DNA of 64,000 bases. Origin: Ignisphaera aggregans DSM 17230. Lineage in GTDB: Archaea > Thermoproteota > Thermoprotei_A > Sulfolobales > Ignisphaeraceae. The stretch is from positions 62,001-126,000 of the forward strand of contig CP002098.1 of assembly GCA_000145985.1 (NCBI GenBank), in the 5' to 3' direction. Made by a program: the position numbers and the translations under genes. The notes beneath the pieces are model-generated. The model did not search any database, had not been told where the DNA came from, and saw only the letters and a program-made list of their open reading frames with translations. This document shows positions 4,900 to 64,000 of this stretch, piece by piece (the first letter of the stretch is position 1; the number at the start of each line of letters is the position of its first letter).

Positions 4900-4921
4900 G
4901 GTTTATTCTACACTATTACAT

Positions 4922-5284
4922 CTATAAAAGTTTTAGTGTTCCTGTAACCTTATCTATTATATTACTTGGTGCAGGACCTATTCCTAAGGCTGTAATAGTG
5001 CCTGGAGGCAATTCTGTAAGACCTGCATCAGCTATAAGAGCTACAGGTAGTGAAAGCTTCTCACACTCTTCCTTTATTCTTAATAACTCCTCAACACTAT
5101 TAACCTTAACCACAATCTTTTTCTGACCTGTTAAACGCCAGGAATCTAGCCATATACGACAATTACTATTTTCAAGACATTTAAATACTGCTTCTACTGC
5201 AGCATGTGCTACCTGTACAGCTAGTTTCCCCTTGCTCATCTTAATATCAGTTCTAACAACAATAACTTGTTTAAACTCTAGCAT
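4922..5284 (-). CDS. pth2: peptidyl-tRNA hydrolase, Pth2 type
   Basis: 120 residues, full length for archaeal/eukaryotic Pth2. The N-terminal [20 protein letters not shown] and VAHAAVEA carry the conserved lysine and histidine, followed by [18 protein letters not shown] and the ALGIGPAP end. It releases peptides from prematurely dropped peptidyl-tRNAs in the cytoplasm. First gene of a minus-strand pth2-truD pair. Confidence 0.96.
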
Positions 5285-39964: not shown

Positions 39965-40300
39965 GTGTTACACATAGTAAAAATAAGGGTCTATGGACAT
40001 TTAAAGTCACACATAGGTCAAGGTAGTATAGATATTGATCTTGGAACTGAAAAGAAGAACTTAAAAGTAGTTTTAAAAATGATAAATGAATTATTTCCAA
40101 CAATTTCACTATTATCTGAGGAAAATAGAAACATTATATCACAAGATTACTTAATATTAGTAAATGGTATTGATGTAAGAGTGTTTGATGATATTAGTGA
40201 AATTTATATTGAAAATGATGACGAAATTGATATAATACCAATAACACATGGAGGTATATATAATAATGATCATTTTAACACAGATACTATGCGACTATGA
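39965..40300 (+). CDS. MoaD/Urm1-type ubiquitin-like protein with a C-terminal extension
   Basis: About 111 residues from a GTG 7 bases after the S17e stop. The beta-grasp pattern is clear: VKIRVYGHLKSHIG, LKVVLKMINELFP, YLILVNGIDVRVFDD, DEIDIIPITHGG. The diglycine (residues 96-97) would normally end the protein, but the frame runs on for 14 more residues (IYNNDHFNTDTMRL). So it either needs trimming to expose Gly-Gly or is not conjugated. The likely role is a sulfur carrier for TtuA-type thiolation or a protein modifier. It overlaps the Cgi121-like gene by 35 bases. Confidence 0.8.
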   Translation: MLHIVKIRVYGHLKSHIGQGSIDIDLGTEKKNLKVVLKMINELFPTISLLSEENRNIISQDYLILVNGIDVRVFDDISEIYIENDDEIDIIPITHGGIYNNDHFNTDTMRL

Positions 40301-40742
40301 AAGCATACTAAAGTTAAGAGACGAACTATCCAAATTATTTGATAATAGATGTGTAATGATTATTACCCATAAATATCAAATGCCTTGGGAAAGTCATATA
40401 TTAGCATTTATTAATACATTAAAGTCCTTTAGAACTAATACAAATATTGCAAGAAAGTTTGATGTAGAATACCTAATAAGGCTTTTTAATGAGAGACAGA
40501 TTAATCATATTATGGATAAGATAGCTAAGCTATCATTAAATCACGGTAATATGCTATTAATGTATTGTAGCGATGATGTTTCAGATGAATCAATATATCA
40601 CAATATATTGAAAAACGGCTGTACTATTATAAATCCTCTTGATGATATTAATATTGGTCTATCTAATAGTGAGATAAGCAGTATAAAAAGAAAGAGATAT
40701 ATGCTAATAGGGACTTCTGGTTGTAGTACTATACTATCATAG
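40266..40742 (+). CDS. cgi121: Cgi121-like KEOPS subunit
   Basis: About 158 residues. The segment RKFDVEYLIRLFNERQINHIMDKIAKL matches the core of Cgi121, which binds the tRNA CCA end for the KEOPS complex that makes t6A37. The C-terminal part is divergent. The ribosome site GGAGGT (40250-40255) is formed by the diglycine codons of the upstream gene, with 10 bases to the ATG at 40266. No other KEOPS gene is in the window. Confidence 0.75.
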   Translation: MIILTQILCDYESILKLRDELSKLFDNRCVMIITHKYQMPWESHILAFINTLKSFRTNTNIARKFDVEYLIRLFNERQINHIMDKIAKLSLNHGNMLLMYCSDDVSDESIYHNILKNGCTIINPLDDINIGLSNSEISSIKRKRYMLIGTSGCSTILS

Positions 40743-40780: not shown

Positions 40781-40790
40781 TATTTATATA
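40781..40790 (+). promoter_or_regulatory. TATA box before the Glu/Trp micropeptide gene
   Basis: TATTTATATA about 40 bases before the ATG of the short acidic peptide. It would start transcription near 40810 and leave a short leader holding the GAGGTG ribosome site. Confidence 0.5.
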
Positions 40791-40830
40791 TCTCGCTACA
40801 TGTGAAGTGATAATGTAAGAGGTGCAATAA

Positions 40831-40914
40831 ATGTTATTTGAGGAAGAATGGGAAGAGGAAGAAGAAGAGGAATGGTGGGAAGAAGAAGAAGAATGGGAAG
40901 AAGAGGAATGGTAG
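40831..40914 (+). CDS. 27-residue Glu/Trp-only micropeptide
   Basis: ATG...TAG frame of 27 codons. After Met-Leu-Phe every residue is Glu or Trp: 19 Glu and 5 Trp in total, with pattern EEEW, E7, WW, E5, W, E4, W. GAGGTG at 40819-40824 lies 6 bases before the ATG, and a TATA box lies upstream, so it has all signals of a real gene. Both GAA and GAG codons are used, but a purine-rich run could also arise by repeat slippage. It precedes ABCE1 by 81 bases. No function is known to me; a strongly acidic, aromatic peptide could bind a basic partner such as a ribosomal surface. Confidence 0.6.
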   Translation: MLFEEEWEEEEEEEWWEEEEEWEEEEW

Positions 40915-40995
40915 GAAGAAGACTTTATAAGTAAGTCAAGAAATTTTTTAGATTATTGTAATCCATATTTCTACACCAAGGTTGGGTTGTATAAA

Positions 40996-42813
40996 ATGGT
41001 TAGAGTAGCTGTAATCGACTATGAGCTTTGTCATCCAGATAAATGTGGTATACCTTGTATTCGTTTTTGCCCTATAAATAAAACAAAGCCATACAAAGCT
41101 ATAGAGATTAGTAGTGAGAAAAAAGGAAAACCCATTATATATGAAGATAAATGTATAGCTTGTGGAATATGTATAAAAAAATGTCCATTTAAAGCTATAA
41201 GAATTGTTAATCTACCAGAAGAGATAGAGGAAAACCTTATACATAGATATGCTCAAAATGGTTTTAAGTTATATGGACTTCCAGTACCAATAAAAGGAAA
41301 GATAGTTGGTGTTCTAGGACCTAATGGTGCTGGAAAAACTACTGCTATGAAAATTCTCTCTGGAGGTATTATACCGAATTTAGGAGATTATACATCTGCT
41401 CCGAGTATTGATAGAGTATTAGATAAGTTTAGAGGAACAATATTTTATGACTATTTTAAGAAGTTATATGCTAAAGAATTAAAGGTTGTACATAAAATTC
41501 AGTATATAGAACTAATTCCATCATATATTCGCAAGGGTACTGTTAGAGAAATTCTAGATAAAGTTGATGAAAGAAAAATGAAGAAGGATGTTATAGAGTT
41601 TCTTAATATGGAGTTGATGTTAGATAAGGATGTATCAATATTGAGTGGAGGTGAGTTACAAAAACTCGCTATTGCTGTGGCACTACTTAGAGATGGTAAT
41701 ATCTATATATTTGACGAACCTTCTAGCTATTTGGATTTAAAGGAAAGATTGAATATGGCAATAACATTAAGAGAACTTCTACCTATGGATTCGTACATAT
41801 TTGTAGTAGATCATGATTTAATGCTTCTTGATTACTTAGCAGATCAAATAGTTATTACGTACGGTGTTCCCGGTGTTTATGGAATTTTTTCAAAGGTCTA
41901 TTCTACAAATAGTGGAATAGATTATTACTTAAATGGGTATCTTCCATCAGAGAATATGAAGATAAGAGATGAAGCCGTATCATTCAAATTTCATGAAACT
42001 CGCGAGGAATTTACATACATTGAGAAAACAGGTGAAGTTCTATGTTCTTGGAGTGATCTTGTGAAGAAACTAGATAATTTTGTTTTAACTGTTGAACATG
42101 GAGAAGTACACAGAGGTGAGGTTATAGGTATCGTGGGTCCTAATGCCATTGGAAAAACAACTTTTATAAGGATATTGGTAGGAGAGTTAACACCTGATGA
42201 GGGATTCACAACCTCAACAGCTTTAAAACTTAGCTATAAGCCTCAATACTTAAAGAGGAAAATTGATAGTTGTATAACTGTAGAGGAGTGTCTGAAAGAT
42301 ATTAATAGGGAAGCTCTTAATGAGGATCACTGGTTATATCAAGAGGTTATTAAGAGATTAGGAGTTGATAGATTATTTAAAAAGGAGATTGAAAATCTGA
42401 GTGGAGGAGAACTTCAGAAATTTTATGTAGCTCAAACATTGATAAGAGACGCAGATATTTATCTATTGGATGAACCTTCATCACATATTGATGTAGAGGA
42501 TCAACTTTCAGTGGCTAGAGCTATAAAAAAGATTGCTAGACTAAGGAAAGCAGCGATATTTGTTGTAGATCACAATTTCTTATTGATAGACTATGCAGTA
42601 GATAGATTAATGACATTTATTGGTATACCAACTAAGAAAGGCTATGGCAAGTCTCCTACAACTGTAGGAAAGGCATTCAATGAACTTTTAAAAGAACTAG
42701 GTTTGACTGTAAGACGAGATAAGGAGAGTGGTAGACCTAGAATAAATAAACCTGGTAGTTATCTTGATAGATATCAGAGAGAACTAGGTATGTTTTTCTA
42801 TTATGAGAAATAA
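40996..42813 (+). CDS. abce1: ABCE1/Rli1 ribosome recycling ATPase
   Basis: About 605 residues. N-terminal Fe-S domain with two cysteine groups (CHPDKCGIPCIRFCP and CIACGICIKKCP). NBD1 has Walker A GPNGAGKTT near residue 108 and LSGGELQKLAI. NBD2 has GPNAIGKTT near residue 381 and LSGGELQKFYV, each with a D-loop DEPSS. It splits ribosomes after termination together with aRF1/aPelota. The ATG at 40996 begins the family-typical VRVAVIDYELC; an earlier in-frame start is unlikely. Confidence 0.98.
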   Translation: MVRVAVIDYELCHPDKCGIPCIRFCPINKTKPYKAIEISSEKKGKPIIYEDKCIACGICIKKCPFKAIRIVNLPEEIEENLIHRYAQNGFKLYGLPVPIKGKIVGVLGPNGAGKTTAMKILSGGIIPNLGDYTSAPSIDRVLDKFRGTIFYDYFKKLYAKELKVVHKIQYIELIPSYIRKGTVREILDKVDERKMKKDVIEFLNMELMLDKDVSILSGGELQKLAIAVALLRDGNIYIFDEPSSYLDLKERLNMAITLRELLPMDSYIFVVDHDLMLLDYLADQIVITYGVPGVYGIFSKVYSTNSGIDYYLNGYLPSENMKIRDEAVSFKFHETREEFTYIEKTGEVLCSWSDLVKKLDNFVLTVEHGEVHRGEVIGIVGPNAIGKTTFIRILVGELTPDEGFTTSTALKLSYKPQYLKRKIDSCITVEECLKDINREALNEDHWLYQEVIKRLGVDRLFKKEIENLSGGELQKFYVAQTLIRDADIYLLDEPSSHIDVEDQLSVARAIKKIARLRKAAIFVVDHNFLLIDYAVDRLMTFIGIPTKKGYGKSPTTVGKAFNELLKELGLTVRRDKESGRPRINKPGSYLDRYQRELGMFFYYEK

Positions 42814-61257: not shown

Positions 61258-64000
61258 TTATGTCCAGTATTGCGATGTTCTAAGATATATTTTCTCTTGC
61301 TCTACTATATTCATTATTAAATCATTTAGATCTTTTGATCTTGCTAAAATCTTCTTTGCATACTCTATCCCTATTCCTCTTCCTTGTAATGCAATTATAA
61401 AGGCAAGCCCATTTTCCATAATCATATTTATTATCTTACGATGTTTTTCAACTATATGTCTTTCTTCCTCCTTTAGTTCTAAACCTTTTTTAATCTTATT
61501 TAGTATTTCTTTAATCTTATTTGGCTTTTCTTCTTCATTAACTATTGTTATTGCCCTTGATCCACACTGTGGACATGTAATGTAACATTTAAATACATCG
61601 CTACACTTACTTAAGGTATCTTTTATATTTATCTCCCATATGTTATAACACAGAGAGCACATTAGCTTGACATTTCTTTCAAGTAGTCTCCTTCTTGCTA
61701 ATTCTATTAATACATCTTTAGGTAATAATGAAGACTTTATAATACTACCAAATGTTCCGAGTGATGAAAGCTCTACTAGATATGGTGATGGATTTAAAGA
61801 TTTGATTATTCTTATTCTCTTCCCTATTAAGCTTTTCAGATATTTGATTACTTCATCAATGTCTATATTATCTGTTAGTATTTCTCTAAGGGTTTCTTCG
61901 ACAACTAAATCTATATGCATAAGTCCTTCAAACATTCTTTTAATTTCACTAGCATCAGCATCTTTACTGATTATACCAAATTTTCTTGCAACTTCAATTA
62001 ATTTCCATTTGAAGATATGGGTGTTCTTAATTTCTTTGAATAAGATTTCTTTTATTATATCTTCATTTTTTGCTAAATATATTAGTTTTTTCAGCATAGC
62101 TGATAATGATTCTGATGTTAAAATACCATTTATGAGAATTATAGATCCAAGTTGATGTGATTTATATGAGGTAGAAAGACCTAGAAGCTGTTTTATTATT
62201 GCTGAAACTAGTAGTGAAAAAGCTTCTGAGGCTCTGGTTCCTAGGCAATGGTAGAAACCTATTATTGTCTGATTTAATGAATTTATATATGAGATTTCTA
62301 CTGTTAGTTGAGAATCTGATGGATGAATTCTACATATTTTATCCCTGTATTTCTCTAAAAAAGTTCTAACTTCATTATTAATAGAATAGAAATTATATAG
62401 ATTATCAAGACATTTATCATTAATGCAATTACAAAATCTTCTAATAAATGCACAAGTTTCTCTTGCTACATTTCTATAAACAGGAATATTTTCGCCTACC
62501 CATTTTGGTAAGGTTATAGATTCTGAAGATTCTGGAGGTGAGAGCCATACTATTCTTCTCTCTAGATCAATATTAGCGATATTCCATACCTTTCCGCCTA
62601 AAACAATAGTATCACCTATATTACATGTAACTACAAAATCCTCATCAAGTGTCCCAATAATTTTGTCATCAATTATTGATTTTGCATGGAAATGGGTAGT
62701 ATCTGGTATCATATTAGTTGTCAAATAGTATATATAACCCTTTTTAGTAACCTCACAATAATTCTCACTGCATTTTAACATACCTATGCTGTTTAGAAGA
62801 TTTATAATCTTCTCTATCTTTTCTATCTCTATATTGTTGTAAGGCTGTACTGATGAAATTATATTCCATATCTCTATAGGATTTATCTTCTCATATTCTA
62901 TTGCTATACCGATTATTTGATGGGCTAATACATCAAGAGAATTATAGTGAAGATCTAAAGGTTCTAATATTCTATTTCTAGTTCTTCGAGCAATAACAAT
63001 GGATTCTAAGAGTTCTGTAACTATTGGAGGAACAACTATAATGCCTTTGGATACTAGGTCTTCTCTATGACCAGATCTTCCAACTCTTTGTATTAATTTT
63101 ATAGCTTGTCGAGGAGATAGATACTGAATTACAAGGTCTACAGTTCCTATATCTATGCCTAGCTCTAGACTCGATGTTGATACGACTAATTTTATATCTC
63201 CATGTTTAAACTTCTCTTCAATTAACTCTCTTATATTCCTTGATAAAGATCCATGATGTAATCCAATTTTATTCATAGAGTTGCTTTGCTGTGAAGCTAG
63301 ATAAAATCCTAATTCTTCGGCACTGACCCTAGTATTTGTGAATACCAGTATCTGTCTATACATATTACTATTTGCAATATTATTTATAACATTGGCAACA
63401 TCTGTTATATCAAAAATACCATTTTCATATGTTGTAGAACTCATTTTCACATCTATATCGTATACCTTACTTGAGGCTCTAGCAATTATAATTTCATATT
63501 TATGATTTCCAAAGAAATATCTTGAAATTCTATCTAGAGCTTCTAAAGGTGAAGATATTGCTATTCTTCTTACATGTCTATTTAATTTTTTATCAATTCT
63601 TTCCAATAGCAGAATGAGCTCAACACCACGCTCTGATGATATAATCTCTTGTAGTTCATCTACTATTATCGTCTTTAAATTTTTTAAAAAATCAGTGAAT
63701 TCTTGACGTACTAGCAACACTTGTAAGCTTTCAGGAGTTGTAACTAAGATATTTGGAGGTGATTTAAGAATCTTTTTTCTATTACTTTGTGAGGTATCTC
63801 CATGCCATACATCAACATATAATTTCAATATTTCTCCAATACTAGCCAATCTTCTAGTTATATCTCTATTCAATGCACGGAGTGGTGTTATATATAAAAT
63901 TGATATAGGTGCAAGATTATCAATAAACTTTGCAATAGATGGTATAACAGCTGCTTCAGTTTTTCCACTACCTGTGGGAGCTGAAATCAATATATCATTA
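61258..64000 (-). CDS. lhr: Lhr-type superfamily 2 helicase, 5' end outside the window
   Basis: At least 914 residues; the frame is still open at the window edge, just before Walker A (LISAPTGSGKTEAA). DEAD-like box reads DELQEI in place of DEVH/DELH. Other motifs are TPLRALNRD, TTPESLQVLL, FTNTRVSAEELGFYL and QRVGRSGHR. The C-terminal part has zinc-binding CSLC...CPQC cysteines and a helix-hairpin-like end (LQGRGIGIEYAKKIL). Lhr proteins unwind DNA and RNA-DNA duplexes in repair. The gap to the Ced-like operon is 150 bases. Confidence 0.92.
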   Translation of the reverse strand, partial: NDILISAPTGSGKTEAAVIPSIAKFIDNLAPISILYITPLRALNRDITRRLASIGEILKLYVDVWHGDTSQSNRKKILKSPPNILVTTPESLQVLLVRQEFTDFLKNLKTIIVDELQEIISSERGVELILLLERIDKKLNRHVRRIAISSPLEALDRISRYFFGNHKYEIIIARASSKVYDIDVKMSSTTYENGIFDITDVANVINNIANSNMYRQILVFTNTRVSAEELGFYLASQQSNSMNKIGLHHGSLSRNIRELIEEKFKHGDIKLVVSTSSLELGIDIGTVDLVIQYLSPRQAIKLIQRVGRSGHREDLVSKGIIVVPPIVTELLESIVIARRTRNRILEPLDLHYNSLDVLAHQIIGIAIEYEKINPIEIWNIISSVQPYNNIEIEKIEKIINLLNSIGMLKCSENYCEVTKKGYIYYLTTNMIPDTTHFHAKSIIDDKIIGTLDEDFVVTCNIGDTIVLGGKVWNIANIDLERRIVWLSPPESSESITLPKWVGENIPVYRNVARETCAFIRRFCNCINDKCLDNLYNFYSINNEVRTFLEKYRDKICRIHPSDSQLTVEISYINSLNQTIIGFYHCLGTRASEAFSLLVSAIIKQLLGLSTSYKSHQLGSIILINGILTSESLSAMLKKLIYLAKNEDIIKEILFKEIKNTHIFKWKLIEVARKFGIISKDADASEIKRMFEGLMHIDLVVEETLREILTDNIDIDEVIKYLKSLIGKRIRIIKSLNPSPYLVELSSLGTFGSIIKSSLLPKDVLIELARRRLLERNVKLMCSLCYNIWEINIKDTLSKCSDVFKCYITCPQCGSRAITIVNEEEKPNKIKEILNKIKKGLELKEEERHIVEKHRKIINMIMENGLAFIIALQGRGIGIEYAKKILARSKDLNDLIMNIVEQEKIYLRTSQYWT

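Follow-up and report, generated by a model that had tools for sequence, protein, structure and literature searches.

A conserved archaeal microprotein composed largely of glutamate and tryptophan, often encoded next to the ribosome recycling ATPase ABCE1

Immediately upstream of the ABCE1 gene of Ignisphaera aggregans DSM 17230 we found a 27-codon open reading frame in which the codons for Met-Leu-Phe are followed by an unbroken series of 24 glutamate or tryptophan codons. The pattern of codon substitutions in related genomes indicates that this ORF, hereafter EW, is almost certainly a real, conserved gene, and codon selection together with the relocation of the gene in some genomes suggests that its product is very probably translated and acts in trans. 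The peptide is probably a helper of protein synthesis; more tentatively, we propose that it serves ABCE1, or the ABCE1-bound small ribosomal subunit, as a small accessory factor. The ORF lies in a stretch of 64,000 nt (the window; positions 62,001 to 126,000 of contig CP002098.1), in a genome that consists of a single contig of 1,875,953 bp. The features relevant here are:

40248..40742, + strand: upstream gene, KEOPS Cgi121-like (a weak assignment), a conserved neighbour in 14 families
40783..40790, + strand: TATA-box-like TTTATATA, about 40 nt 5' of the EW start codon, read from the sequence
40819..40824, + strand: Shine-Dalgarno site GAGGTG, 6 nt 5' of the EW ATG, read from the sequence
40831..40914, + strand: EW microprotein gene, ATG start, 27 codons, TAG stop at 40912-40914, peptide MLFEEEWEEEEEEEWWEEEEEWEEEEW
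40944..40949, + strand: T6 run between the EW stop codon and abce1, a possible U-rich terminator
40996..42813, + strand: ABCE1, ribosome recycling ATPase, the next gene 3' of EW; a TTG-started frame begins at 40987

An initial annotation of this DNA had described the 27-codon ATG frame with its TAG stop, TATA box, GAGGTG site and composition of 19 Glu and 5 Trp, and had placed it ahead of ABCE1; all of this was confirmed in the sequence, with the ATG of ABCE1 at 40996 on the same strand. The peptide MLFEEEWEEEEEEEWWEEEEEWEEEEW contains, besides these 24 residues, one each of Met, Leu and Phe. Its 24-residue stretch is the sole Glu/Trp run of at least 8 residues in any frame of the window, whereas the longest such run was 3-5 residues in 30 windows simulated with a second-order Markov model. 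The EW loci of relatives carry a comparable T/A-rich box 40-60 nt upstream, often AGAAATGCTTTTAT, and the gene is predicted to be expressed.

Sequence of this kind could in principle have arisen by slippage of a purine repeat and be open by accident, the alternative raised in the initial annotation, and a tandem repeat finder indeed reported GA-rich arrays across the ORF. Comparison among relatives argues decisively against such an origin. In an ABCE1-anchored examination, an EW peptide was present upstream of abce1 in 16/16 family loci for which upstream DNA was available, including those of ten genus relatives. Across 19 aligned C-terminal codons of ten genus members, pairwise differences comprised 289 synonymous and 16 nonsynonymous changes, and all 16 of the latter were confined to one column, where the Glu stretch and with it the peptide length varies. 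With the exception of this length-variable column, both GAA and GAG occur in each Glu column; TGG is invariant in every Trp column, and the stop position is fixed while the stop codon itself may be TAA, TAG or TGA. The ORF thus displays the properties of a protein-coding sequence, namely a synonymous excess, a conserved start and stop, and a ribosome site. The synonymous excess, the fixed TGG codons and the fixed stop position point to purifying selection on the peptide, which excludes a drifting purine repeat, and both the short runs in the Markov windows and the recurrence of the ORF across the phylum, beside the same gene and preceded by a Shine-Dalgarno site, speak against chance as well; we consider this explanation refuted. 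The comparison proposed in the initial annotation, that of the intergenic DNA preceding abce1 in relatives, therefore bore out its central claim of a real, expressed-looking Glu/Trp micropeptide, the frame being kept and the changes being synonymous outside the one length-variable column.

A strict DNA pattern for EEWWEEE matched 89 of the 214 genomes of the order and, reversed as a control, none; a looser W-EEE-EW pattern matched 181/398 sampled genomes of the phylum, with few matches to the reversed control. These counts are lower bounds, as strict patterns miss versions containing Asp, Phe, Leu or Ile. Such versions occur in S. acidocaldarius-like, Acidianus-like and Aeropyrum-like genomes (these and other such names of relatives, e.g., Saccharolobus, are tentative assignments), and in two families (f19 and f31) the peptide was detected solely by the ABCE1-anchored search. 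We collected 149 distinct EW peptides of 21-67 residues, with 67% Glu and 15% Trp, composition figures that are biased by the search pattern; length and order vary across the set and composition is kept. Properties outside this selection are the location of the gene, its Shine-Dalgarno-like site (present in 123/149 distinct genes, compared with a mean of 60 after shuffling) and the C-terminal residue, which is Trp in 116 of the 149 peptides, the usual ending being ...EEEEW. In 147/149 there is no basic residue beyond position 10, and the peptide, with a core free of basic residues, is presumably disordered.

The gene was probably present in the phylum from early on. In families f18 and f54, which do have ABCE1, and in f6 no EW gene was seen near ABCE1, and pattern searches found none in the genomes checked; we take f18 and f54 to be probably ammonia oxidisers and f6 to be Ignicoccus-like, and in any of the three a strongly diverged or relocated form may have escaped detection. 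The family libraries searched contain no entry for EW: Pfam and NCBIfam gave no family match, although such searches are weak for two-letter, low-complexity sequence owing to composition-bias filters, and a PDB sequence search with EW peptides, which is uninformative for this composition, gave no match either. No mention of the ORF was found in the open papers searched, which covered small proteins of archaea and the RNA atlas of S. acidocaldarius, and a prior description elsewhere is possible. Among viral sequences in IMG/VR, 16 contigs matched EW patterns and 11 E/W-rich frames were found. Ten of these lie inside longer, apparently unrelated proteins (L294-L299, L301 and L303-L305), and the eleventh (L300) is a 34-codon frame at a contig end, unlike the EW family; a viral or mobile-element origin was rejected on this basis.

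The most persistent neighbour of EW is ABCE1. A genuine ABCE1, called at >=38% identity to the protein of the window, lies within 1.5 kb of the EW gene in 25/43 mapped families, a count based on one to few loci per family and on families that are not independent, because gene order can be inherited. It is commonly the next gene, 40-240 nt 3' of EW, sometimes with a zinc-ribbon gene in between. By comparison, Cgi121 was a neighbour in 14 families, the zinc ribbon in 13 and THUMP in 10; the Cgi121 assignment is tentative, a homologue of the upstream gene scoring 28.4 bits to NF011465 (cut-off 40). ABCE1 stays in place even when the upstream side has been exchanged: in f17 and f48 that side is now occupied by what we read from the sequence as an asparaginase-like gene. 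An ABCE1-anchored search, which does not depend on the peptide pattern, placed an EW peptide upstream in 40/72 loci. In an S. acidocaldarius-like genome of 2,225,959 bp, the EW gene occupies about 534834-534926 of the minus strand, 49 nt ahead of abce1. We infer an ancestral order S17e / MoaD-like / Cgi121 / (THUMP) / EW / (zinc ribbon) / ABCE1 / FBPase. Raw sequence also revealed that several ABCE1 proteins from the wider order (L014-L017) carry an acidic C-terminal tail that lacks Trp.

In other genomes the EW gene is oriented or placed differently. Desulfurococcaceae-like genomes carry an intact copy on the opposite strand, pointing away from ABCE1; in one such family (f9; L057 and 28 further loci) EW converges, across 5-110 nt, with a gene whose 172-aa product matches nothing in Pfam or NCBIfam. 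In Saccharolobus-like genomes most copies are solitary, away from abce1 and followed by a long T run, and an Rfam search of three loci of this type found no known RNA, while in Aeropyrum-like genomes EW adjoins a methyltransferase gene and is unlinked to abce1.

These relocations bear on whether EW is a cis-acting leader peptide, whose translation would control read-through into abce1 in response to Trp or Glu supply, or through destabilisation of the ribosome by the acidic nascent chain. In leader peptides of the trpL type, a short ORF with tandem Trp codons lies upstream of a gene, and EW is likewise a short ORF with Trp-Trp 5' of a gene. It further has a promoter-like box of its own, and a run of T6 or longer separates EW from abce1 in 12/17 loci, including all 11 genus members, where shuffling expects 1.0. 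Unlike in trpL-type leaders, however, the amino-acid sequence of EW is conserved and there is often no attenuable gene downstream. A general leader of abce1 would have to lie always directly upstream and co-directional, whereas EW is divergent or unlinked in several families; since the peptide stays intact at such loci, from which abce1 cannot be controlled in cis, an effect of this kind cannot be its general role. We therefore hold the leader explanation to be very unlikely, though a local cis effect on abce1 is possible within the genus of the window.

The initial annotation had offered ribosome, histone-like or nucleic-acid mimicry as candidate functions; the conserved linkage to ABCE1 favours a role in translation. 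The Trp residues, with their fixed spacing and their place at the C-terminus, look like anchoring points, and the Glu runs would suit a basic surface on a partner; taken with the linkage, this makes ABCE1 or its 30S complex the favoured putative partner. The gene product would be a disordered, polyanionic and aromatic microprotein, its Glu runs broken by Trp, that acts in trans: the Trp side chains may anchor in hydrophobic pockets of the partner, while the Glu runs may contact basic surfaces or keep RNA away from them. Splitting could thereby be promoted, the post-splitting state held, or ABCE1 released. Several observations weigh against this accessory role. ABCE1 belongs to an old conserved cluster (S17e, MoaD-like, Cgi121, FBPase), so that proximity may reflect inherited order. 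The linkage is missing from about 40% of mapped families, and f18 and f54 possess ABCE1 with no EW seen nearby. The zinc-finger fusions described below also lie away from ABCE1.

The main and serious rival is that EW is a general polyanionic chaperone or nucleic-acid mimic, in which Glu would mimic phosphates and Trp stacked bases; such a peptide would shield or exchange basic ribosomal or nucleoid proteins, and its proximity to ABCE1 would be inherited gene order. The variation of length and order under a kept composition is what a composition-driven disordered chain would show, and many families lose the linkage yet keep the peptide. Acidic-aromatic segments of histone chaperones are disordered acidic chains whose aromatic anchors bind basic proteins; the likeness to EW is one of description, and these segments belong to large eukaryotic proteins. 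A precedent is the acidic tail of PBP1 in the Sulfolobus PolB1 holoenzyme, proposed to be a DNA competitor and demonstrated to help the enzyme recycle (PMC5418573). PBP1, too, is a small crenarchaeal protein whose Glu-rich part modulates and helps to recycle a nucleic-acid enzyme, but the tail is attached to a folded domain and works in DNA replication (PMC5418573). On the other hand, a generic polyanion needs no fixed Trp, whereas 116/149 EW peptides end in Trp and the Trp columns of the genus are invariant, and the linkage to ABCE1 is the most persistent one. On balance we judge the mimic or chaperone role somewhat unlikely.

A transcription role, with EW as the partner of a small RPB9-type zinc-ribbon protein and hence an accessory of a transcription factor, appears improbable. 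Between EW and ABCE1 there is repeatedly a gene for a protein of about 96 aa whose N-terminus is a zinc ribbon of the RPB9/TFS type (L053 plus 45 loci, e.g., L093, L161 and L170); this gene adjoins EW in 13 families, often directly, and the protein matches PF02150. It nevertheless reaches only 38.4 bits against a TFS cut-off of 64.75, and most families, that of the window included, have no such gene beside EW. Two families (f52 and f69), which can be cited in favour of this association, fuse a different, treble-clef-like zinc finger (CxxC...CxxC...CxxC...CxxC) to an E/W-rich tail, away from ABCE1:

L189, about 4981-5238, - strand: zinc-finger/E-W fusion, no family above cut-off
L190, about 4920-5174, - strand: zinc-finger/E-W fusion, no family above cut-off

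AlphaFold modelled the finger of the fusion with confidence and the tail at a pLDDT of about 50, i.e., with no reliable structure, and a fold search with the fusion gave no PDB match at E <= 0.001, with weak resemblances to FYVE/PHD/RIM-type fingers only.

For the ABCE1-accessory role, a loose analogy is offered by the N-terminal acidic motif (NTA) of eIF3j/Hcr1, in which, as in the 149 distinct EW peptides, Trp is set amid an acidic run. The single core Trp of the eIF3j motif occupies a hydrophobic pocket that has been characterised in eIF3b, and the yeast mutant V33A, Q35A, W37A, D38R, EEEE40-43RRRR loses binding (PMC2824034). The analogy is loose because this known pocket belongs to eIF3b rather than ABCE1, which also counts against an ABCE1 partner for EW, and EW has several Trp residues. 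In yeast, Rli1/ABCE1 binds Hcr1 directly and extra RLI1 suppresses an hcr1 deletion (PMC3836723); the protein carrying the eIF3j/Hcr1 motif is a binding partner and helper of ABCE1/Rli1, whereas for EW the connection is one of gene linkage. According to a study of archaeal ABCE1 on the 30S subunit, eIF3j assists ABCE1, possibly via the ABCE1 ATPase, and the role of ABCE1 in initiation needs elucidation (PMC7196836). The eIF3j/Hcr1 motif forms part of a longer eukaryotic protein that also has a C-terminal half, while EW has only 27 residues here and 21-67 in the family; with the larger protein missing, EW was rejected as an eIF3j member, and the likeness is one of mechanistic analogy, homology being beyond the reach of low-complexity sequence. 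By this analogy, EW might be a dedicated, ancient archaeal recycling cofactor of ABCE1, a functional counterpart of the Trp-containing acidic segment of eIF3j/Hcr1, and would, with two residues, have one of the simplest conserved functional alphabets known among proteins, a specific form of the accessory role that we regard as speculative and somewhat unlikely.

EW represents a protein family made largely of Glu and Trp that selection has maintained across a phylum of archaea; it apparently escaped notice because gene callers and homology filters pass over sequences this short and of such low complexity. The family indicates that a conserved function can reside in composition and spacing instead of in a fold, and it makes the question of accessory factors of archaeal ABCE1 directly testable in the tractable S. 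acidocaldarius.
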